DNA of 41,893 nucleotides from an uncultured Gammaproteobacteria bacterium. Lineage in GTDB: Bacteria; Pseudomonadota; Gammaproteobacteria; Pseudomonadales; Pseudohongiellaceae. The notes beneath the pieces were generated by a model. It did not search any database. It was not told where the DNA came from and saw only the letters and a program-made list of their open reading frames with translations. Below, in pieces: positions 1 to 11,403 of this stretch (positions within the stretch are counted from its first letter, which is position 1; every line of letters begins with the position of its first letter). The DNA is taken from NCBI GenBank assembly GCA_903887045.1, contig CAISOD010000240.1, positions 1 through 41,893 of the forward strand. The letters run 5' to 3'. Made by a program: the position numbers and the translations under genes.

Positions 1-1278
1 AGGCCGCAATGCCCGCACCAATTCCGGTAACGGCAGCGCGTTGGCGAGTACGGCCTGCACTGCTTCATGCACCTGGTCCAATTGTGCCGATAACGGCCGC
101 GCTGAATCAGTATCGAGGTACAGCGGCAACAATTGCATATAGCAACCGATGCTCTGCTCTTCCTGCACGGTGGTCCTTGCTGCCGACGGCAATCCGATTA
201 CCGGATTGCCGGCAGCACCCACGCCCCGCAGTGCTATTGCCAATGCGGTAGCCAGCACAGCAAACGGTGTGCAATGGCTGGATACGCATAATGTCTGCAG
301 TTGTGCCATCAGTGCTGCCGGCAACCGACAAGATAGCTGTTGCATGCGATAGGGCCAGTGTTCTGCCGTTGGCTGCCACGGCAAAGCCGGTGGGTGCTTG
401 GCTGGCGCGCTCAGGTACTGCCGCCACCAGTCCAGTTGCTGCCGGTGCCCATCACCCTTCAAGCGCTGCTGCTGTCGCTGACAATGCAGGGCAAAAGCAG
501 TATCTGCTGCTGGCGCTTGCCAATGTGGATCGCGGATCAGTTCACAATAATTGGTGGCCAGTTGCTGCAACAACACGCCGCCCGACCACCCATCCAGCAC
601 GCAATGATGAGCACCCAGCAACAGACTGTGGTGAATATCGCTGTGCCGCAACAATCTGCAGCGAAACGCATTGCAGTGCAGATCGAAGGGCTTGGCAGCC
701 CAGACGGCAGCCAGGGCAGGCAAGTCCAGGGGAGCAACTGCGTCCGGCGCATACAAGCGAGGAGAGTTTGGTGCTGGCCGTACCAGTAAGCGCCGCTGGC
801 GCGTGTCAAACTGCAGGCAACTGGCCAACACCGGAAACTGCTTAACCAGTAGGTTGATTGCATCTGCCAGCCTGCGCCATTGCAATGGTCCATGCAGTTC
901 CATCACTACTGCACTGTTATACAGACCAGCAACACCGGACTGCTGCTCGCTCCACCAGAGACCTTGCTGACTGCTGTTGGCGACAAACTCCGCCTCTGCA
1001 GTAGCCTGCTTCACTGCCGGCTCCGGTTTGTTGGCACCGGCAACCAGGGCGCTACACCACTGAGCCATTTTGCGGGGAGTGCCGAAGTGGGACATATCCT
1101 GCAAACGCAACTCCAGGCCTGCGTGCTCACGCACACGCAGCAGCAGTCTGGCGAGTTGCAGGGAGTCGCCACCTGCGAGGAAAAAGTGGGTATCGGGCTC
1201 TATCGAGTCGGAAGCCAATACCTGCTGCCACAGCGCGATAATCTGCGGCAACCGGGCACTAGTGGCAGCGGTCTCCAT
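1..1278 (-). CDS. NRPS-type carrier protein-condensation protein, partial at left edge
   Basis: I read this by translating the minus strand; it is absent from the ORF track because it stays open to the window edge (426 codons, no stop). Residues about 10-80 form a peptidyl carrier domain with the phosphopantetheine site LAGGDSL (Ser39). Residues about 100-426 form a condensation domain with the motif HHCVLDGW (His224-Gly230, predicted catalytic His225) and a late motif IGCYMQLLP where the family's IGxFVN motif sits. Such domains join a carrier-bound acyl group to an amine or another acceptor. The ATG overlaps the stop of the upstream adenylation gene (ATGA), so the two are probably translationally coupled and work together: the upstream enzyme would load this carrier. 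The product and remaining domains lie outside the window. The domain calls are firm; the substrate is unknown. Confidence 0.9.
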   Translation of the reverse strand, partial: METAATSARLPQIIALWQQVLASDSIEPDTHFFLAGGDSLQLARLLLRVREHAGLELRLQDMSHFGTPRKMAQWCSALVAGANKPEPAVKQATAEAEFVANSSQQGLWWSEQQSGVAGLYNSAVVMELHGPLQWRRLADAINLLVKQFPVLASCLQFDTRQRRLLVRPAPNSPRLYAPDAVAPLDLPALAAVWAAKPFDLHCNAFRCRLLRHSDIHHSLLLGAHHCVLDGWSGGVLLQQLATNYCELIRDPHWQAPAADTAFALHCQRQQQRLKGDGHRQQLDWWRQYLSAPAKHPPALPWQPTAEHWPYRMQQLSCRLPAALMAQLQTLCVSSHCTPFAVLATALAIALRGVGAAGNPVIGLPSAARTTVQEEQSIGCYMQLLPLYLDTDSARPLSAQLDQVHEAVQAVLANALPLPELVRALRP

Positions 1279-2825
1279 CATGCCCTCGCCCGCTGCAGAC
1301 CTTGGGCCTGATCGTAGCCTTGCTGCAATTCCATCCCACAGCGCTGGCGATCCGGCTTGCCTCCGGCCAACAGTGGCAGTTCACCGTAAAACGCCAGCCA
1401 CACCGGAGTAGCGAACAGCGCACCCCGACTCAAATAGAAATCCAGCAACTCATTGGCATCGGCGGTGGCGCCATCCTGCAGTTCAACAGCCAGCGCAAGG
1501 CGTTCACTTCCGGCAGCAACTGTAATCGCGACAGCCACACAGGCACGCAAGGCCGGATGCTGCAACATTACCTGTTCAACTTCCTGCGGGTAGACATTGC
1601 GGCCGTTGATGACACACATTGCATCCACCCTGCCCACGAAGAAGTAGTATCCGTTGGTGTCGCGATGCAAACGATCGCCGGTATGGAACCAGCGATCGCG
1701 GTACTTGCGCTGGTTCAGGGCAGCGTCCGTATAGCACGGTGTGGTGGTTGGATTCCGCACACACAGCTCGCCGGTATCAGCTTCGCTGCCATCAGCAGCC
1801 AGCAAACGCGCCTCACCGAAACGCAAGCGACCACAACTGCCGCTCGGCGCTGCAACATCATCATGCGTATTGAAGATGCCGGTCAGGCATTCGCTCATGC
1901 CATAGCCGTTGTGTACACGCACGCCGAGCTGTTGCGACAACTGCTGCAGGCGGGCACTGCTGATCGCCTCCCCCATCGCCAAACAGTGGCGCAGTGCCGG
2001 CAATGGATTGGCCTCGGCTGCTGCCAGCAGCTCCTGCAACAGCGATGGCACCAGCAGCATGAACCGACACCCACTCCTGCGCAGCACGGCCAGGTGATCG
2101 CAGGCCTGTGCATTGCGCAGCAGATGCAGTGTGCGGCCTTCCAGCAGACTCTGCAGACAGAAACTGAGCCCGCCCCAATGGGTAACCGGCAATACATTAA
2201 CGCGGGCCGAGGGCTTCTTATCGCCGGCATCATCGGGGAAGGCCTGGTAGAGAACGGCCAGATGCTGCATGAAAGCAACCAGCATGGCACGCGTGTAGCA
2301 CATGCCCTTGGGTGCGCCAGTGGAGCCAGAACTATGGAACAGCAGCACTGCCTCAGCACGAACCGGCTGTGACTGTCTGCGCTGGCGCACACTGCGCAGG
2401 CGCAGCACAGGCTGCAGCCATTGCTGCTGGCGCTCATGCAATCGCAACACGCGTGGATGCGGCAGGCGGGAGAGATGCCGCAGGTCGTCGACAACGATGA
2501 GTTCAGGTGGCTCCCGCAACAACAGCTGCTGCAAGCCAGTGCCTGCAAAATCGGGGTGCACGGGCAACAGGCACAAGTGCAGCGACAAAGCAGCCAGCAG
2601 CAACGCGAAGAAATGCGGGTTGTTGGCTGTCATCACCAGCAGCCGGTCACCTGCCTGCAAGCCCTGCGCCTGCAACACTTCTTCACAGTAGCGCCGCTGG
2701 CGTTGCAACTCGCTCCAGCTCCAGCTGAACTTCCGGTGTTGTCCGTCCACCAGCGTGAGTGCGGTTTTGCTGCCGTCGTGGCACAAGCGTTTGAACAAGC
2801 CGTCAATCACATCCGTGTGTTGCAT
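1278..2825 (-). CDS. Stand-alone adenylation (AMP-binding) enzyme, NRPS-associated
   Basis: A 515-residue member of the ANL superfamily, which activates a carboxylic acid with ATP and transfers it to a carrier thiol. Visible motifs in order are the P-loop SSGSTGAPKG (about residue 165), YGMSE (about 307), HTGDR (about 380), the hinge region GRVDAMCVINGRNVYPQEVE, and a C-terminal GGKPDR (about 487) with the adenylation lysine. I chose the ATG at 2825 because GGAGG lies four bases upstream and the longer track start adds a non-conserved, cysteine-rich tail. The region corresponding to motif A4 reads LPVTHWGGL, without the FDxS aspartate that holds the amino group of alpha-amino acids, so the substrate may be an aryl or aliphatic acid (inference). 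It is coupled by ATGA to the carrier-condensation gene. Confidence 0.9.
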   Translation of the reverse strand: MQHTDVIDGLFKRLCHDGSKTALTLVDGQHRKFSWSWSELQRQRRYCEEVLQAQGLQAGDRLLVMTANNPHFFALLLAALSLHLCLLPVHPDFAGTGLQQLLLREPPELIVVDDLRHLSRLPHPRVLRLHERQQQWLQPVLRLRSVRQRRQSQPVRAEAVLLFHSSGSTGAPKGMCYTRAMLVAFMQHLAVLYQAFPDDAGDKKPSARVNVLPVTHWGGLSFCLQSLLEGRTLHLLRNAQACDHLAVLRRSGCRFMLLVPSLLQELLAAAEANPLPALRHCLAMGEAISSARLQQLSQQLGVRVHNGYGMSECLTGIFNTHDDVAAPSGSCGRLRFGEARLLAADGSEADTGELCVRNPTTTPCYTDAALNQRKYRDRWFHTGDRLHRDTNGYYFFVGRVDAMCVINGRNVYPQEVEQVMLQHPALRACVAVAITVAAGSERLALAVELQDGATADANELLDFYLSRGALFATPVWLAFYGELPLLAGGKPDRQRCGMELQQGYDQAQGLQRARA

Positions 2826-2991
2826 ACTGCCTCCCTGGTTATGCTGTTCCTGCCCGGCTGCAGCGTAGTACATGCCAGCAGTTTTGCCAGAAAAGTTTTT
2901 ATGCGATGCTGCAGCGCGATACTGCCGCGCGTTCCAGAACTTCTCGCAATACCAGTGGCGGCAGCAGAATTGGAAACGGAGCAAGTACAGC

Positions 2992-3696
2992 ATGAACTTC
3001 AGAAGGTGGTGGGCAGTGAGCCTGATTGTGGTCAGCGGGTTGTCCACTACACCAACGCAAGCGCAGATAGACGAAGACCAGAGCGGCGCCTGGTATGTGT
3101 ATCAGTGGACCCGCAGCCCCGGTGATAACGGCATCGGCTTCCAGGGCGACTTCCAGCATCGCAACTGGTCTACCAGCGGCGATGTTGAACAGCTGCTGGC
3201 CCGCGGTGGTATTACCTGGACCCCGCAAGGCAGCACGATCAAATACACCTTTGGCGCGGCGTACGTGCATTCGGAAGCCTTTGGTCCGAGTGATGCCGCG
3301 TCGCAGGAAACCCGGCTGTACCAGGAAGCACTGATGCCGCAGCGGCTGGGTACACGGATACTGCTGACACACCGCGGGCGCTTTGAGCAGCGAGATGTCG
3401 AAGGCCAGGATACGCGCACCCGGCTGCGTTACCTGATCGGTCTCAACTACCCCTTCAACCGCGACAACCTGGGCAAAGGTGCGGTGTATCTGGCGTTGAC
3501 CAATGAAGTGTTCATCAATCTGGAACGCGGCATCGGGCGTGGCCGCAGTGTCGATTACTTCGACCGCAACCGCGCTTACGCGGGAGTGGGGTATTCAGTG
3601 ACTGATGGCTTGCGCCTGCAATTCGGCTACCTTGAACAAACCCTCGACGCCAGTCGCAAGGGTCAACTGCAATTCAATGTGATCCACACGTTCTGA
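2992..3696 (+). CDS. DUF2490-type predicted outer-membrane protein
   Basis: The 234-residue product starts with a typical signal peptide (MNFRRWWAVSLIVVSG, cleavage probably after TQAQ). It continues as alternating aromatic and polar beta-strands and ends in a terminal Phe (VIHTF), as outer-membrane barrels do. The pattern, with DQSGAWYVYQW near the mature N-terminus, the LYQE and RGRFEQR segments and GVGYSVTDGLRLQFGYLEQ near the end, matches the DUF2490 family, whose function is unknown. I prefer the ATG at 2992 (GGAG ten bases upstream) over the longer track start because the signal peptide begins there. It is divergent from the adenylation gene across 166 bases, and the cyclase gene follows closely on the same strand. 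A specific role cannot be inferred. Confidence 0.8.
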   Translation: MNFRRWWAVSLIVVSGLSTTPTQAQIDEDQSGAWYVYQWTRSPGDNGIGFQGDFQHRNWSTSGDVEQLLARGGITWTPQGSTIKYTFGAAYVHSEAFGPSDAASQETRLYQEALMPQRLGTRILLTHRGRFEQRDVEGQDTRTRLRYLIGLNYPFNRDNLGKGAVYLALTNEVFINLERGIGRGRSVDYFDRNRAYAGVGYSVTDGLRLQFGYLEQTLDASRKGQLQFNVIHTF

Positions 3697-3715
3697 TCAA
3701 CAATCTGCCCTGGTC

Positions 3716-4795
3716 TTGCGGCGGGTGCTGCACAGCAATGACGCATTACAAGTGCCAACGGCTTCTCTGGCAATCCCGCCGGAAGCAAATCACACTAGCG
3801 CGCAATACAGTGCCGCAAGGACCTCCCGGCAACTACACGCTTGGGCACAGAGCCGGTTTTCCGTCAACCCAGGCAGGTTCGGGTTGCTCATGTCCGATTT
3901 GCGTGGCTTCACCGCGCTGACTTCCCAGTACCCCATCGACCGACTCGCCCCTTTCCTCGACATGTATTTCCGCCGAATGACCGACATCATCGGCAACCAC
4001 GGCCGGGCTATCGACAAATTCATGGGCGATTCGATCTTCGCTTTGTTCACTGACGATCAGACGCAGAGCAACCGTTCCGAGCTTGCACTATTGTCTTGTG
4101 CAATCGACATGCAAGTGGCAATGAACGCCATCAATGAATACGGCTACACGCTGGGTCTGCCATCGATCTACACGGGAATTGGCCGCAACGTGGGCGACGT
4201 GGTTACCTGCACGCTCGGCTCGGGCATCTATCTGGAACAAACCGTGCTGGGTGATCCGGTCAATCTCGTGGCACGCCTGGCGGGCTTCGCTTTGCGCGGC
4301 CAGGTATTGATGAGCGAAGCCGTATACGAAGCCGGCAAAGATTCAATAATCGCTGGTTCCAGCATCAACGTGATGATCAAGGGCCGTAAACAATCAGTGC
4401 AGGTACGCGAACTGCAGGGGCTGACCTGGCCAATGCAGATGGCGATACCAGTCAGGGAGAACGGCAAAGGTCCGCGTGTCGAAGTGATACTGCCGATCAC
4501 CTGTCACCCGATCGAAGACCAGCGGGTCCGGCAGCAGGCAATCAAGGCCGATATCATTGACTTGTCATATGGCGGCATGCGCATCCTGACACCACAGCGG
4601 CACGACCCGCTCGACGAAATCAAGATCGTGATTCCATTCGGCATGGGGCCCAACAACACCAACGGTGACGTCTATGCCAAGGTGCTTACCTGCGCCAACG
4701 AAGAGGACGGCAGCTACTGCTTTTCCACCGAGTTCAGCTATCTGGAAGAATTCACCCGTCGTTCGATACGCAGTCTGGTAGATCATCTGGCCTGA
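3716..4795 (+). CDS. Class III adenylate cyclase fused to a C-terminal PilZ domain
   Basis: Residues about 53-235 form a class III nucleotidyl cyclase domain predicted to make cAMP. All key residues appear present: metal-binding Asp61 (SDLRGFT) and Asp105 (KFMGDS), purine-selecting Lys101 and Asp180 (LGDPVN), and transition-state Asn183 and Arg187 (VNLVARL). Residues about 253-355 look like a PilZ domain with the DxSxxG motif (DLSYGG, Asp282-Gly287). The upstream arginine motif is RVRQQ rather than RxxxR, so c-di-GMP binding is doubtful. No transmembrane segment is visible, so the protein is probably cytosolic. The start is uncertain: only TTG (3716) or GTG (3725) is available before the catalytic core, and no good ribosome binding site is seen. 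The gene is convergent with the sensor-kinase gene, 27 bases away. Confidence 0.85.
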   Translation: MRRVLHSNDALQVPTASLAIPPEANHTSAQYSAARTSRQLHAWAQSRFSVNPGRFGLLMSDLRGFTALTSQYPIDRLAPFLDMYFRRMTDIIGNHGRAIDKFMGDSIFALFTDDQTQSNRSELALLSCAIDMQVAMNAINEYGYTLGLPSIYTGIGRNVGDVVTCTLGSGIYLEQTVLGDPVNLVARLAGFALRGQVLMSEAVYEAGKDSIIAGSSINVMIKGRKQSVQVRELQGLTWPMQMAIPVRENGKGPRVEVILPITCHPIEDQRVRQQAIKADIIDLSYGGMRILTPQRHDPLDEIKIVIPFGMGPNNTNGDVYAKVLTCANEEDGSYCFSTEFSYLEEFTRRSIRSLVDHLA

Positions 4796-4822
4796 GTTGC
4801 CCGCTGCGAGCGCTGCCGCTAC

Positions 4823-7051
4823 TTACTGCTTCCTCGTTGTTTTGCGCCAGAGCGGCAAGCGCACCACTACGATGACACCCTCTTCGCCCATGAGGTTTTC
4901 GGCATAGATGGTGCCGTTGTGGAACTCGGCAATCAGCCGTGCGATATGCAAGCCCAGCCCCAGATGCGGCAAGCCCTTGTTGCCCTGCGGCCTGACCGAC
5001 ACCATCGAATCAAAAATGCGATCCTTCATGGCCGGATCCAGATACGGGCCGTGGTTACTGACACTGAGCACGGCTTCACCGTTGTCTTCACGGCAATTGA
5101 GCAGGATGGGTTGCCCCGGTTTCGAAAACTCCACTGCGTTGGCCACTACCTTGTCGAGCAGCTGCACCAGGTGCTCGGCACTGCCCTGTACCAGCATCCT
5201 GTGGCTGGCGATGTCGGTCTCGAAGCGGGCCGCCGGATAGATCTGGCGATACTGATCAACACAGGCCTGCGCGACCAGCTCCAGCGCCAGCGGCTCTTTC
5301 TCACAGCCCTGCAGGATCTGCTCCAGCCGGGTGGCTTCGCTCATGTTGGTCAGAATCAGGTTGAGGCGGCTGATCCCCTCTTCTGCCCGCTGGATGTACA
5401 CCTCGGTTTCAGCGTCGCTGTGGTTGAGCAGCCGCAGGTTTTCCAGCGAAGAGCGCACTACAGTGACAGGAGTCCGCAGCTCGTGCGACAGCCGCGCCGT
5501 GAGGTTTTCCAGGTACTGGTTGTAGTGGCTCAGCCGCTCCACCATGTTGGCGATACTGCGCGACAGGTCACCCAGTTCGTCGCTGCTGCGCGACGGCACC
5601 AGGGTTTTGTTGAGGCGTCCCTGCTCGTCGATGCTGTGTTCGGCCGCATCGCGCAGGGTGCGGATGCGTTGCGACAGACTGCCGGCAAACACCAGCAGCG
5701 CCGTCATCGTCAGCAACAGGATGGCCAGCATGGCATCGAACAACGACGCCAGCGACTGGTTGCGGGCACTGCGCAGACCTTCAAGGTTTTGGTCCACCAT
5801 CACGGCGCCTACCACTTCGCCATTCAAGTCGCTGCCAACACTGATAGGCCATGCTGTTTCCAGCGAACGCACCAGTGTCATCGCATCAGTGCGATAGCCG
5901 CTCTGGGCAGCGCCGGCAAGGGCGGCCTGCAATTGCGGGCTGTCGGCCTCATTGGTGGCGAGTTCGGTCGCGGCGTTATCACGTTCCAGCCAGGTCAGCA
6001 GGCCGTCGTATAAAGGATGCAGCAGCCGCGTGCGCAGCCAGTACCACATGCCGCTGTCAGCCTCAGTGGTCGTTGCTGCAAGCACCACGCCGGTAGCAGT
6101 GCGGATGTCGCCGCTCTCATGCAACAGGCGGCCACCGCGGTCGTATACCCGCACCCGGAAATTGGCGAGGTGCTGCGCCGCCAGCAAGGTATCCAGTTCA
6201 CTGGCCGGGCGCTGCAGGCGAGCAGCAGGAGCGTCCATGTCGCCAGAGGCTACTATCGCCGCCAGCGAACCCGACTCGTCGTCATCCACATCTTCCACTG
6301 CCAATGCCAGCCAGCTGGCAGCCATCGAGATGGGCAAGCGCAGCTCGTACTCATAGCCTTCCGGTGTTTCGCTGTAACGGCCACTGATGCGCGACTCCAC
6401 GGCATAGCTGCGCGGATTAAGCTTGTCCTCACCTTCATGCCAGGCGGTGATTGCACCGCCGCGCGCCGGACTGATGCGATAGCGACTGGCATTGCCGTCG
6501 GCAGCGACCAGCGCCAGCACCAGTGCATCGCTGCCATTGAGCTGCAAGGCTTCGCTGCGTGCCGGCACTACGTTGCCGTCAATTGCCCGCACGTACAGGA
6601 ACAGGGTGTTGGCCGCCTCGCCGACCAACAGCCGCAGCTCCAGCAAATCGCCGCCGCTGCTGCGGCCGCGAAAACTGGTGTATTGATTGCCCCGGAAAGG
6701 CGCGGCACTGCCTTCATGCAGTGCCAGTTCATGCTGGCGGAAGTCACGCCAGTCGGCCAGCGTGCCATCGTTGACATCGGGAGTGAGCGTCAGCGGGTAT
6801 ACGTAAAGCCGGTTGCTGGAAGTGACCTCACTGCCGTCAACCGACATGTTGTTGAACAGCTGGGGCTTGTCGTTCAGCGTCAGCGCCAAGGCCCGCGCAA
6901 TACTGGCCACCATCTGTTCCTGGCCATGCTGCAGCGTGGTTTCCAGCTCGCGGATGTACTGGTACCCGAACCACGGCAGCGGCAACAGCAGCAACGGCAG
7001 CAGCAGCATTTTGCTGCGCAGTCCCGGCCTGAGTTGCCGCCACTCAATCAT
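4823..7051 (-). CDS. pdsS: Sensor histidine kinase, PdsS-like (dedicated sortase system)
   Basis: A 742-residue membrane kinase. Order: short N-terminus, TM1 (about residues 15-33, ending PWFGYQYI), a large periplasmic region of roughly 400 residues, TM2 (LFDAMLAILLLTMTALLVF), HAMP linker, dimerisation domain with the phosphorylated His523 (LSHELRTP), and an ATPase domain with NAVEFS and GLGLHI. The periplasmic part includes a beta-rich stretch around residues 80-260 that resembles a carbohydrate-binding or DOMON/CBM9-like fold (tentative). The sequence after TM1 (ELE...HGQEQ) and the gene context agree with PdsS, the sensor of the Proteobacterial Dedicated Sortase system. I chose the ATG at 7051, which overlaps the response-regulator gene by 8 bases, as expected for a coupled pair. 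No sortase gene is in the window. Confidence 0.85.
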   Translation of the reverse strand: MIEWRQLRPGLRSKMLLLPLLLLPLPWFGYQYIRELETTLQHGQEQMVASIARALALTLNDKPQLFNNMSVDGSEVTSSNRLYVYPLTLTPDVNDGTLADWRDFRQHELALHEGSAAPFRGNQYTSFRGRSSGGDLLELRLLVGEAANTLFLYVRAIDGNVVPARSEALQLNGSDALVLALVAADGNASRYRISPARGGAITAWHEGEDKLNPRSYAVESRISGRYSETPEGYEYELRLPISMAASWLALAVEDVDDDESGSLAAIVASGDMDAPAARLQRPASELDTLLAAQHLANFRVRVYDRGGRLLHESGDIRTATGVVLAATTTEADSGMWYWLRTRLLHPLYDGLLTWLERDNAATELATNEADSPQLQAALAGAAQSGYRTDAMTLVRSLETAWPISVGSDLNGEVVGAVMVDQNLEGLRSARNQSLASLFDAMLAILLLTMTALLVFAGSLSQRIRTLRDAAEHSIDEQGRLNKTLVPSRSSDELGDLSRSIANMVERLSHYNQYLENLTARLSHELRTPVTVVRSSLENLRLLNHSDAETEVYIQRAEEGISRLNLILTNMSEATRLEQILQGCEKEPLALELVAQACVDQYRQIYPAARFETDIASHRMLVQGSAEHLVQLLDKVVANAVEFSKPGQPILLNCREDNGEAVLSVSNHGPYLDPAMKDRIFDSMVSVRPQGNKGLPHLGLGLHIARLIAEFHNGTIYAENLMGEEGVIVVVRLPLWRKTTRKQ

Positions 7052-7769
7052 CGGATTTTCCGGTTTCCTTGCCGGCATGCGGCGGGTTCCAGCGATAGCC
7101 CATGCCGTAAACCGTATCGATGCAGTCAAAGTCGGCATCCAGCTGGATGAACTTCTTGCGCATGCGTTTGACGTGCGAGGTGATGGTGCTGTTGTCGACG
7201 TAGATTTTGGATTCCTGCATCAGCGCATCGCGGCTTTTTACATGGCCGGGGAACTTCACCAGCGCATGCACCATCCAGAATTCAGTAACAGTCAGCAGTA
7301 CGTCCTGGTCTTTCCAGTTCACGGTGAGGCGACTCAAATCGAGCGAGAGATCGCCGCGCACCAGCTGGTTTTCCGGCTGGGCCGGCACCTGCAGTGCATC
7401 CTGCCGGCGGAACAACGCGGCGATGCGCGCCAGCAAATGCGGCATGCTGATGTCCTTGGTCAGGTAATCATCGGCGCCCATACGCAGACCGCTGACGGTG
7501 TCAAAGTCGTTGTCGCGCGCGGTGAGGAAGATGATAGGCAACGTTACCGACAGTGAGCGCAGTTCCTGGCACAGCAGGAAACCACCGTCGATTTCGCTTT
7601 CAAGACCAATGTCGATCAGTGCCAGATCAGGCAGCCGCGTTGCAAACGCCGCCATGGCTTTTTTGCGATTGGCAAAGGTGGTGACGTCATAGCCCTGTTT
7701 GCGCAGCACACTGGCGTAGTTTTCACGCAGGGCAGCTTCGTCTTCGACGATGGCAATGCGGCGACTCAT
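7044..7769 (-). CDS. pdsR: OmpR/PhoB-type response regulator, PdsR-like
   Basis: A 241-residue two-domain regulator. The receiver domain (about 1-120) has the acidic pair Glu9/Asp10 (IVEDE), phospho-acceptor Asp53 (LIDIGL), the conserved Thr in LTARD and Lys in YLTKD. The C-terminal winged helix (about 145-230) has the recognition-helix region NSTITSHVKRMRKKF and ends GMGYRW. IDIGL followed by EIDGGFLLCQELR, and DADDYLTKDIS-like spacing in the receiver, recall the PdsR family of the dedicated sortase system. The ATG at 7769 is preceded by AAGGAA at good spacing; the longer track start lacks a site. It is the first gene of the pdsR-pdsS pair and is divergent from the OmpA-like gene, so the shared intergenic region probably carries its operator. 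Confidence 0.88.
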   Translation of the reverse strand: MSRRIAIVEDEAALRENYASVLRKQGYDVTTFANRKKAMAAFATRLPDLALIDIGLESEIDGGFLLCQELRSLSVTLPIIFLTARDNDFDTVSGLRMGADDYLTKDISMPHLLARIAALFRRQDALQVPAQPENQLVRGDLSLDLSRLTVNWKDQDVLLTVTEFWMVHALVKFPGHVKSRDALMQESKIYVDNSTITSHVKRMRKKFIQLDADFDCIDTVYGMGYRWNPPHAGKETGKSDD

Positions 7770-8013
7770 TGAGCGTTGATTCCTTGTGGTCAGGGTGGGC
7801 CAGTGCACAGTCAGGGACTGCTTTCGAGCCTAAACTCAGGCGAACTATAGCCCAGTTCAGCCGGCAAGACCGGGCTGCAGCCGCACTGCCAGAATTCCGC
7901 CATGATTCATCATGAGCCTGCCCGTTTTGCTCCACGGGTTTGTACTGGTCGGCATGTTGAATGGCGGCCATGCCAAAGCAGTCCGCCGCGGCACTTGTCC
8001 CAAGGAGCCAAGC

Positions 8014-9843: not shown

Positions 9844-10389
9844 TTACGCCGGCCAACGCTGCACGAAATCGGCAAGATTGTGCTGTGGCACCGGTCGCTC
9901 CTGCACCGTGGCAGTGCCGACATACAGAAAGCCGACGATTTCATCTGTCTCTTTCAATCCCAGCCCCAGCTTCACCCGGTTGTCGTAACACATGCCCCCG
10001 GTAAGCCAGATCGAGGCATAGCCGAGTGCATGGCAGGCAACTGACATGTTCTGTAGTGCTGCTGCCACCGAGCAGACCTGCTCGTTCGGCCGGACCTTGC
10101 CTTCTTTGACGGTGGCAACACCCACGATAATCAACGGGGCACGCATCGGGGTGGTCAGCAGTTTCTGTTTGCGCTCTTCAGTATCAGGCTGGGTAGCCTC
10201 GACAAACATCTGCGCCAACTTCTGTCTGCCCTCACCTTCCACCAACAGGAATTTCCACGGCCGCAACATGCCGTGATCAGGGGCGCGCAGACCTGCTTTT
10301 AATATCTGCTCCAACTCAGCAGCGTTGGGAGCCGGCTCAACCAGCCGAGGGGCGGCTGTTCTCGTTTGCAAAGCAGTTAAAGCGTCCAC
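9844..10389 (-). CDS. Nitroreductase family protein, YdjA-like
   Basis: A 181-residue flavin (FMN) oxidoreductase of the small, minimal nitroreductase type represented by E. coli YdjA (183 residues). The start region DALTALQTRTAAPRL, then LRAPDHGMLRPWKF (FMN-contacting segment), AAALQNMSVACHALGY, and IVGFLYVGT near the end follow YdjA throughout. I chose the GTG at 10389: it is preceded by GAGGT at good spacing and aligns with the YdjA N-terminus. The ATG used in the track (10503) lies inside a hairpin repeat and adds about 38 unrelated residues. It probably acts as an NAD(P)H-dependent reductase of nitro or quinone compounds; the physiological substrate is not known. It stands alone between tRNA-Ser and the repeat upstream. 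Confidence 0.9.
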   Translation of the reverse strand: MDALTALQTRTAAPRLVEPAPNAAELEQILKAGLRAPDHGMLRPWKFLLVEGEGRQKLAQMFVEATQPDTEERKQKLLTTPMRAPLIIVGVATVKEGKVRPNEQVCSVAAALQNMSVACHALGYASIWLTGGMCYDNRVKLGLGLKETDEIVGFLYVGTATVQERPVPQHNLADFVQRWPA

Positions 10390-10438
10390 TGGTTTACCTC
10401 TTGATTGGTTCTGGGGCTTGAGAAGTACGGTTAAGGTC

Positions 10439-10538
10439 GGAGCAGGTATCAACGCTTCCGGGACACGCGTGAATACGTCCTTGTAGCTCCCTTCGGCATC
10501 CATGCCTCAGAGGTCCCTGCAGCATTGATACCTGCTCC
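10439..10538. repeat. 100-base inverted-repeat element (MITE/REP-like hairpin)
   Basis: The ends GGAGCAGGTATCAA (10439-10452) and TTGATACCTGCTCC (10525-10538) are perfect 14-base inverted repeats. Inside them GCT/AGC and GGGAC/GTCCC can pair as well, making an imperfect arm of about 27 bases. The core holds a further small palindrome, GGCATCCATGCC. It sits between the nitroreductase start and the queF end. It looks like a non-coding mobile or dispersed repeat rather than a terminator, since no T-run follows. Whether it recurs in the genome cannot be seen here. Confidence 0.75.
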
Positions 10539-10569
10539 TCCTTCGTACCTCTGCTCATGTTCGTTGGGG

Positions 10570-11403
10570 TTATTGGCGGTTATAGCGTGGGTAAAGCACG
10601 TAATCCATCATCTCTGATGTAGCACGCACTGGATTGATGTCGAGGCCGCCACGTCTGAGGAAATTCGCCTCGACACTCAGGCTGTGCGGACGGCAGATCT
10701 GTTTGATATCGAGAAAAATCCGCTCAACGCAGTTCTCGTGGAAATCGTCGTGCAGACGGTAGGACACGAGATAACGCAACAGCGCAGCGCGGTCGATCTG
10801 CGGGCCTTGGTAACAGACCGTCACCGAGCCCCAGTCGGGCTGGCCAGTGATCGGGCAGCGTGAGCGGAACAGGTCTGTGTAGAGGATTTCGTCGACCAGC
10901 TGTTCGAAGGCAGCGTCGGGGTCAGCCAGTTGCAGCAACGTTGGTTCCACCTGATAGTGCTCACAGGCAATTTCCAGACTGTCGAGACTGATACCAGTTG
11001 GGGCCTCGATCAGTTCCTGCATGCCGCTGAAGGGTTGCAGTAATACGTCAACCTCAGCACCCGCAGCTGCGGAAAGATCGCGCTTGAGGCAGTCGCGTAC
11101 GGCATTGATATCGCTGAAGGGTTCCTGGTTCAGCGAATTGAGATACAGCTTGAACGATTTTGATTCGATGATGGCCAGACTCTGGCACGGGAAGATGAAC
11201 CGCGCGCGCGCCACTTGTGGCTTGCCTTGCGGGTCCAGCCACGACAACTCGAACGCATTCCAGATGTCGGCACCGCAGAACGGCAGTTCAGCTCCGGTGA
11301 CGCCGAGGCGTTGGCGGTTGTCGGTGCGCGGGATTGGTGCCAGTTGTGAGGGATCGTAATGATCCGGATAGGCCACTTGCTGGCCCAGCGGTAGCGTATG
11401 CAT
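10570..11403 (-). CDS. queF: NADPH-dependent 7-cyano-7-deazaguanine reductase QueF
   Basis: A 277-residue enzyme that reduces preQ0 to preQ1 in queuosine biosynthesis, in the cytosol. It is the long, two-T-fold-domain form found in gammaproteobacteria. Visible features include the nitrile-binding cysteine in SRCPITGQPDWG, the acid/base aspartate in HDDFHENC, the substrate-binding glutamate region VERIF, and an N-terminal half with FELSWLDPQGKP and ESKSFKLYLNSLNQ. The ATG overlaps the stop of yadH, so it is the third, translationally coupled gene of yadG-yadH-queF. Length and motifs are complete. Confidence 0.97.
   Translation of the reverse strand: MHTLPLGQQVAYPDHYDPSQLAPIPRTDNRQRLGVTGAELPFCGADIWNAFELSWLDPQGKPQVARARFIFPCQSLAIIESKSFKLYLNSLNQEPFSDINAVRDCLKRDLSAAAGAEVDVLLQPFSGMQELIEAPTGISLDSLEIACEHYQVEPTLLQLADPDAAFEQLVDEILYTDLFRSRCPITGQPDWGSVTVCYQGPQIDRAALLRYLVSYRLHDDFHENCVERIFLDIKQICRPHSLSVEANFLRRGGLDINPVRATSEMMDYVLYPRYNRQ

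Follow-up and report, generated by a model that had tools for sequence, protein, structure and literature searches.

In vibriobactin synthesis, a stand-alone acid-activating adenylation (A) protein, a carrier and a condensation (C) protein act outside a full module, namely VibE, VibB and VibH; VibH is a lone C domain acting on a free polyamine, and VibB carries an isochorismatase. PvdL-type loading follows the domain order AL-T-C-A-T (AL, acyl ligase; T, carrier) on one polypeptide that also holds further modules, and its ligase is of the FAAL type. The PCP-C didomain of PDB entries 7kw2/8fx7 and the T-C part of 5u89 are excised parts of larger non-ribosomal peptide synthetase (NRPS) proteins. 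In gut bacteria, the fatty-acid-amide systems OaaA/OaaACP/OaaC consist of a separate acid-activating A protein, carrier and C protein, with a free amine as acceptor (PMC13142362), which shows that a stand-alone acid ligase can function together with a carrier and a C domain that are each proteins of their own.

Here we describe an NRPS locus of an uncultured gammaproteobacterium that compares with all four. It comprises three proteins of 500-600 aa, a stand-alone A, a T-C and, convergent with these, an A-T, and begins at the left edge of the 41,893-nucleotide stretch of DNA that we analysed (the window). As in the Oaa systems, the proteins are small and separate and include a stand-alone A predicted to activate an acid as well as a carrier and a C domain, with no thioesterase (TE) detected; unlike in the Oaa systems, where carrier and C are separate and an A-T is absent, the carrier is fused to C and the locus has an A-T of its own. 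With VibE/VibB/VibH the locus shares a stand-alone A, a carrier and a C domain that does not belong to a full module; it differs from them with respect to the lone, polyamine-directed C domain of VibH and the isochorismatase of VibB; VibH is not among the PDB matches listed for the T-C protein (P0001). The domain order is that of PvdL-type loading, although PvdL-type systems are single polypeptides with further modules and a FAAL-type ligase. Finally, T-C matches the didomain of 7kw2/8fx7 and the T-C part of 5u89 in the order T then C and in approximate length (88-96 bits), but unlike these excised parts it is a natural whole protein. The architecture is a variation on known NRPS types, of moderate to low surprise, and leaves the known NRPS assembly scheme unchanged. 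Its interest lies in its size: with three proteins, one predicted amide bond and no detected TE, it would be about the smallest possible complete acyl-amino-acid NRPS. Since the protein chain is cut at A/T and at C/A, the locus is a natural experiment on which contacts of the carrier domains depend on a covalent link, and also on how a product would exit without a release domain. It draws attention, in addition, to a small molecule of uncultured bacteria that is as yet unexplored.

The synthetase genes span two contigs

The window is the entire contig C240 of a 3.39 Mb genome in 313 contigs. A first-pass annotation, made from the window alone, had reported a carrier-condensation gene with GGDSL and HHCVLDGW motifs at positions 1-1278. 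Indeed, one minus-strand frame has no stop between the left edge and 1281, its translation contains both motifs, and both domains are found by their Pfam models well above the cut-offs (PP-binding, PF00550: E=1.1e-11, 45.3 bits, cut-off 20.8; Condensation, PF00668: E=8.7e-41, 140.5 bits, cut-off 30.6). The extent given for the open frame was right except for the start, which moves to 1281 when both possible ATGs are counted. At this ATGATG the stop codon of the stand-alone A gene (1278-1280) overlaps the ATG of T-C (1279-1281), as in translationally coupled genes. Coordinates are collected in Table 1.

Table 1. Positions of the synthetase genes, their domains and the neighbouring genes (window coordinates unless another record is named)
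Feature	Position	Strand	Remarks
Contig join	1..141	.	exact 141-bp overlap with start of contig C298, same genome
T-C gene, 5' part (427 of 511-512 codons)	1..1281	-	remainder on C298, L004:142-396, + strand
Condensation domain, first three quarters	4..987	-	HHCVLDGW near 586-609; C-terminal part on C298
Carrier (PP-binding) domain	1057..1245	-	GGDSL attachment serine is residue 39 of P0001
Stand-alone A gene, predicted acyl/aryl-acid type	1278..2825	-	515 aa from conserved Met75; frame open to GTG at 3047
Right flank	2872..7808	.	DUF2490 gene, PilZ/cyclase gene, sensor kinase, response regulator; outside the synthetase
Sensor kinase	4823-7138	-	right border of the chromosomal slot
Response regulator	7044-7808	-	right border of the chromosomal slot
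GntR-PurM gene	C298, L004:2263-3672	-	beyond A-T; PurM-like (AIR synthetase) with N-terminal GntR DNA-binding domain

The minus strand of the window ends in exactly the 141 bases with which C298 begins. The T-C frame runs on across this join to a stop at C298:394-396, without an early stop or frameshift, giving a protein of 511 aa with a complete C domain, and the C-terminal part of that domain, encoded by C298, aligns with relatives up to their last residues. The A-T gene follows on the opposite strand, the two stops overlapping by four bases. That C298 was wrongly joined to the window is exceedingly unlikely: the join does rest on a 141-bp overlap of contig ends, a length that is probably the k-mer of the assembler, yet both the reading frame and the homology of the C domain pass through it, and G001, G004 and G005 hold the whole arrangement on single contigs. 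The presence of the orthologous locus on one contig in an independent MAG likewise argues against a false join of C240 and C298.

The first-pass annotation had also proposed a split NRPS-type locus with its remaining parts to the left, in an order unlike the usual C-A-T. The first half of this proposal is borne out by the A-T gene on C298. The second half falls away, because A, T-C and A-T together read as an ordinary A-T-C-A-T, in which a loading module is followed by a single extension module; the unusual feature is where the proteins are cut, at A/T and at C/A. Throughout the genome, the Condensation model matches solely at the ends of C240 and C298, which amounts to one C domain. PP-binding matches occur only in T-C, in A-T and in a small protein (56.5 bits, 79-aa frame) that we take to be the fatty-acid ACP. 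Given this single C domain and these carriers, the locus consists of A, T-C and A-T with one condensation, within the limits of a draft genome. The genome also encodes one phosphopantetheinyl transferase of the Sfp/HetI type, a HetI-like protein of 248 aa whose 138.7 bits fall short of the equivalog cut-off. No thioesterase scores over the PF00975 cut-off anywhere in the genome, and two sub-threshold PF00975 matches lie elsewhere than at the locus. In summary, the locus is a real, complete, small NRPS-type system.

The two adenylation proteins

We aligned the stand-alone A with the A-T proteins, ordinary A domains and two FAAL-type ligases. In all five genomes that carry the locus (see below), the A4 motif of the stand-alone A reads PVTH[WF]GG in the place of FDxS and therefore lacks Asp235, the residue to which the alpha-amino group binds; the A10 Lys is retained. 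The best neighbours of this protein, by sequence as well as by fold, are acyl-, aryl- and oxalyl-CoA ligases, MenE and luciferases, although the predicted structure is of moderate confidence (pLDDT 73) and its fold matches support the ANL class only. Acyl-CoA-ligase models outscore the general A-domain model TIGR01733, which matches weakly (130 bits, cut-off 317). Judged from its sequence, the protein thus looks like an acyl/aryl-acid ligase. We rejected the narrower identification as a FAAL, since its profile scores two PvdL-like ligases below most amino-acid A domains; these matches to PvdL-like FAAL-type ligases are weak (20-32 bits per segment).

If the stand-alone A instead activated an unusual amino acid, the product would be a dipeptide, for example a diketopiperazine formed by spontaneous cyclisation. 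A dipeptidyl thioester would account for the missing TE, and TIGR01733 does still find the protein, if weakly. We nevertheless regard this as markedly unlikely, because Asp235 is absent in five of five proteins, with His-Trp/Phe-Gly-Gly at that place, and because the acyl-CoA-ligase models rank above the amino-acid model.

The A-T protein on C298 has 593 aa with AMP-binding, AMP-binding_C and PP-binding domains. It keeps Asp235 in FDI[SC]LF (FDISLF in the genome of the window), the A10 Lys (SGKTDR) and a GGSS carrier motif; the carrier matches PF00550, and GGSSM is conserved. TIGR01733 gives 308 bits, slightly below the cut-off of 317. Read by eye at the GrsA positions, the binding pocket is D-I-F-Q-I-I-L-I-W-K. 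This resembles a glycine code except at position 301, where Ile stands unlike the usual Gly. A literature search on the glycine code string returned no paper, so the reading of the A-T substrate as glycine-like stays weak.

The condensation domain and a proposed assembly route

A subtype tree was built from 92 C and E domains of 20 NRPS loci of the order, with approximate subtype labels taken from domain order (three of the five 'AL-T-C' labels are A domains cut by the locus end). The five C domains of the genus group together (SH-aLRT 99), and their branch sits next to both the T-C-A/LCL and the DCL/dual clades at a fork that the tree does not resolve. Placing them with LCL gave a slight gain in likelihood (lnL +3.3, p-AU 0.59; subtype labels from gene context), and placing them with DCL/dual gave a lower likelihood and was not rejected (lnL -13.0, p-AU 0.21).

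Taken together, we consider it probable that the locus is a minimal three-protein NRPS that makes an N-acyl-aminoacyl thioester via one amide bond. The stand-alone A would activate a fatty, short or aromatic carboxylic acid that has no alpha-amino group and load it in trans onto the carrier of T-C, while A-T would activate glycine or another small amino acid onto its own carrier. The C domain would then take the acyl group from the carrier to which it is fused and join it to the amino group held on A-T, yielding the N-acyl-aminoacyl thioester. Release might occur by hydrolysis, by a free nucleophile or through some further enzyme. Because the genome has a single C domain, we expect one amide bond, and the product is probably one acid joined to one amino acid; A-T could also serve another partner. 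In other genomes of the order, acyl-ligase-T-C-A-T occurs as one polypeptide (loci L084 and L085), an unsplit form with the same domain order, and its presence in the same order supports the reading as loading plus extension.

The absence of a TE over the PF00975 cut-off and of a module downstream of C in the same protein would also fit a fatty-acid-amide mode, in which C joins the acyl group on the carrier to a free small amine and A-T has another role, such as holding an amino acid for tailoring. This is the mode of OaaA/OaaACP/OaaC, in which A, carrier and C are individual proteins (PMC13142362). We think such a mode rather unlikely here, since A-T adjoins T-C wherever the site is visible, is convergent with it and equally well conserved, whereas the fatty-acid-amide systems are without an A-T. 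The C domain, furthermore, retains DGWS, as condensation domains of the ordinary T-C-A type commonly do.

Conservation within the genus

The locus is present in five of the 11 genomes of the genus, namely that of the window, G005, G001, G003 and G004. In G001, G004 and G005 all three genes lie on one contig in the same arrangement; G003 shows A and T-C, with only the last codons of A-T at its contig end. The G003 locus record, CAMDML010000075.1 (L053), is titled Klebsiella pneumoniae though the locus groups with the uncultured gammaproteobacterial genus, and is probably mislabelled. Some MAG records of these uncultured bacteria resemble lake-survey records.

Identity to the window protein is 46, 42, 37 and 34% for T-C, 41-58% for the stand-alone A and 50-63% for A-T. 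The orthologues, too, have their domains above the Pfam cut-offs. Across this range of 34-63% the catalytic motifs are kept in the five genomes with one exception: GGDSLQ is invariant in T-C, and the active site of the C domain (HHCVLDG in the genome of the window) follows HHxxxDG in four genomes and is QHxxxDG in G004, where the domain is also shortened.

Among the 137 genomes of the family, a match at 1e-60 was found in these five only. Nothing comparable was found outside the genus in 392 genomes of the order (best 261 bits, inside a 3398-aa frame) or in 369 genomes of the class (best 259 bits, inside a 6875-aa frame); complete members of the genus score 674-876 bits. A scan of genome contig records returned four records of the genus and otherwise only matches of 21-32% identity. 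G006 carries a different, ordinary NRPS fragment.

The patchy distribution, the truncated A-T left in G008 (see below) and the G004 protein with its QH and shortened C domain could suggest a decaying, non-functional remnant of a larger NRPS cluster. This is very unlikely, in our view: open frames, catalytic motifs and gene order are kept even though T-C is only 34-46% identical to that of the window, and all carriers have the same three-gene form, with no larger version in the genus.

On the favoured reading as a working acyl-amino-acid system, a fuller picture may tentatively be drawn, that of a genus-specific, vertically kept three-protein NRPS whose fused T-C, placed between an acid ligase that loads it in trans and the separate A-T, would be the whole condensing machine; its product, a new N-acyl amino acid that might serve as a signal or surfactant, would be released without a TE.

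Chromosomal site and neighbouring genes

In G001, the set is flanked on one side by the GntR-PurM gene and on the other, after a few further genes, by the sensor kinase and response regulator. The window together with C298 is consistent with this site, G004 shows its PurM side and G003 its kinase side. Other genes occupy the slot in G010 and G012. In G008 (L103:6063-7094) the slot holds a truncated A-T, the first ~315 residues, 75% identical to that of G005, and T-C and A are absent. From these few genomes we infer that a single-site locus lost by deletion in places fits better than repeated acquisition.

Several neighbours were considered. The GntR-PurM gene, which on C298 lies beyond A-T as does a PQQ-type dehydrogenase gene, was rejected as a cluster member because it is conserved (75-91% identity) in genera g1-g3, apparently as their purM, and occurs there in genomes without the NRPS too. 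It is the best purM match in the g1-g3 genomes searched, which lack the canonical purM, with no match above the TIGR00878 cut-off; genera g4-g8 of the family have canonical purM. GntR-PurM looks like a regulator-fused form replacing a housekeeping purine enzyme, and a literature search found no paper on a GntR-fused PurM. An S46 peptidase (dipeptidyl-peptidase family) is encoded divergently from the A gene in G005 (L025:5521-6230) and G001 (L026:9925-12111); it was rejected as a partner, being beside the A gene in these two genomes only and absent from the window. Finally, a nitroreductase-family gene and queF adjoin at 9844-11403 of the window, and likewise on the A-gene side of the G004 locus (L028:15685-17086).
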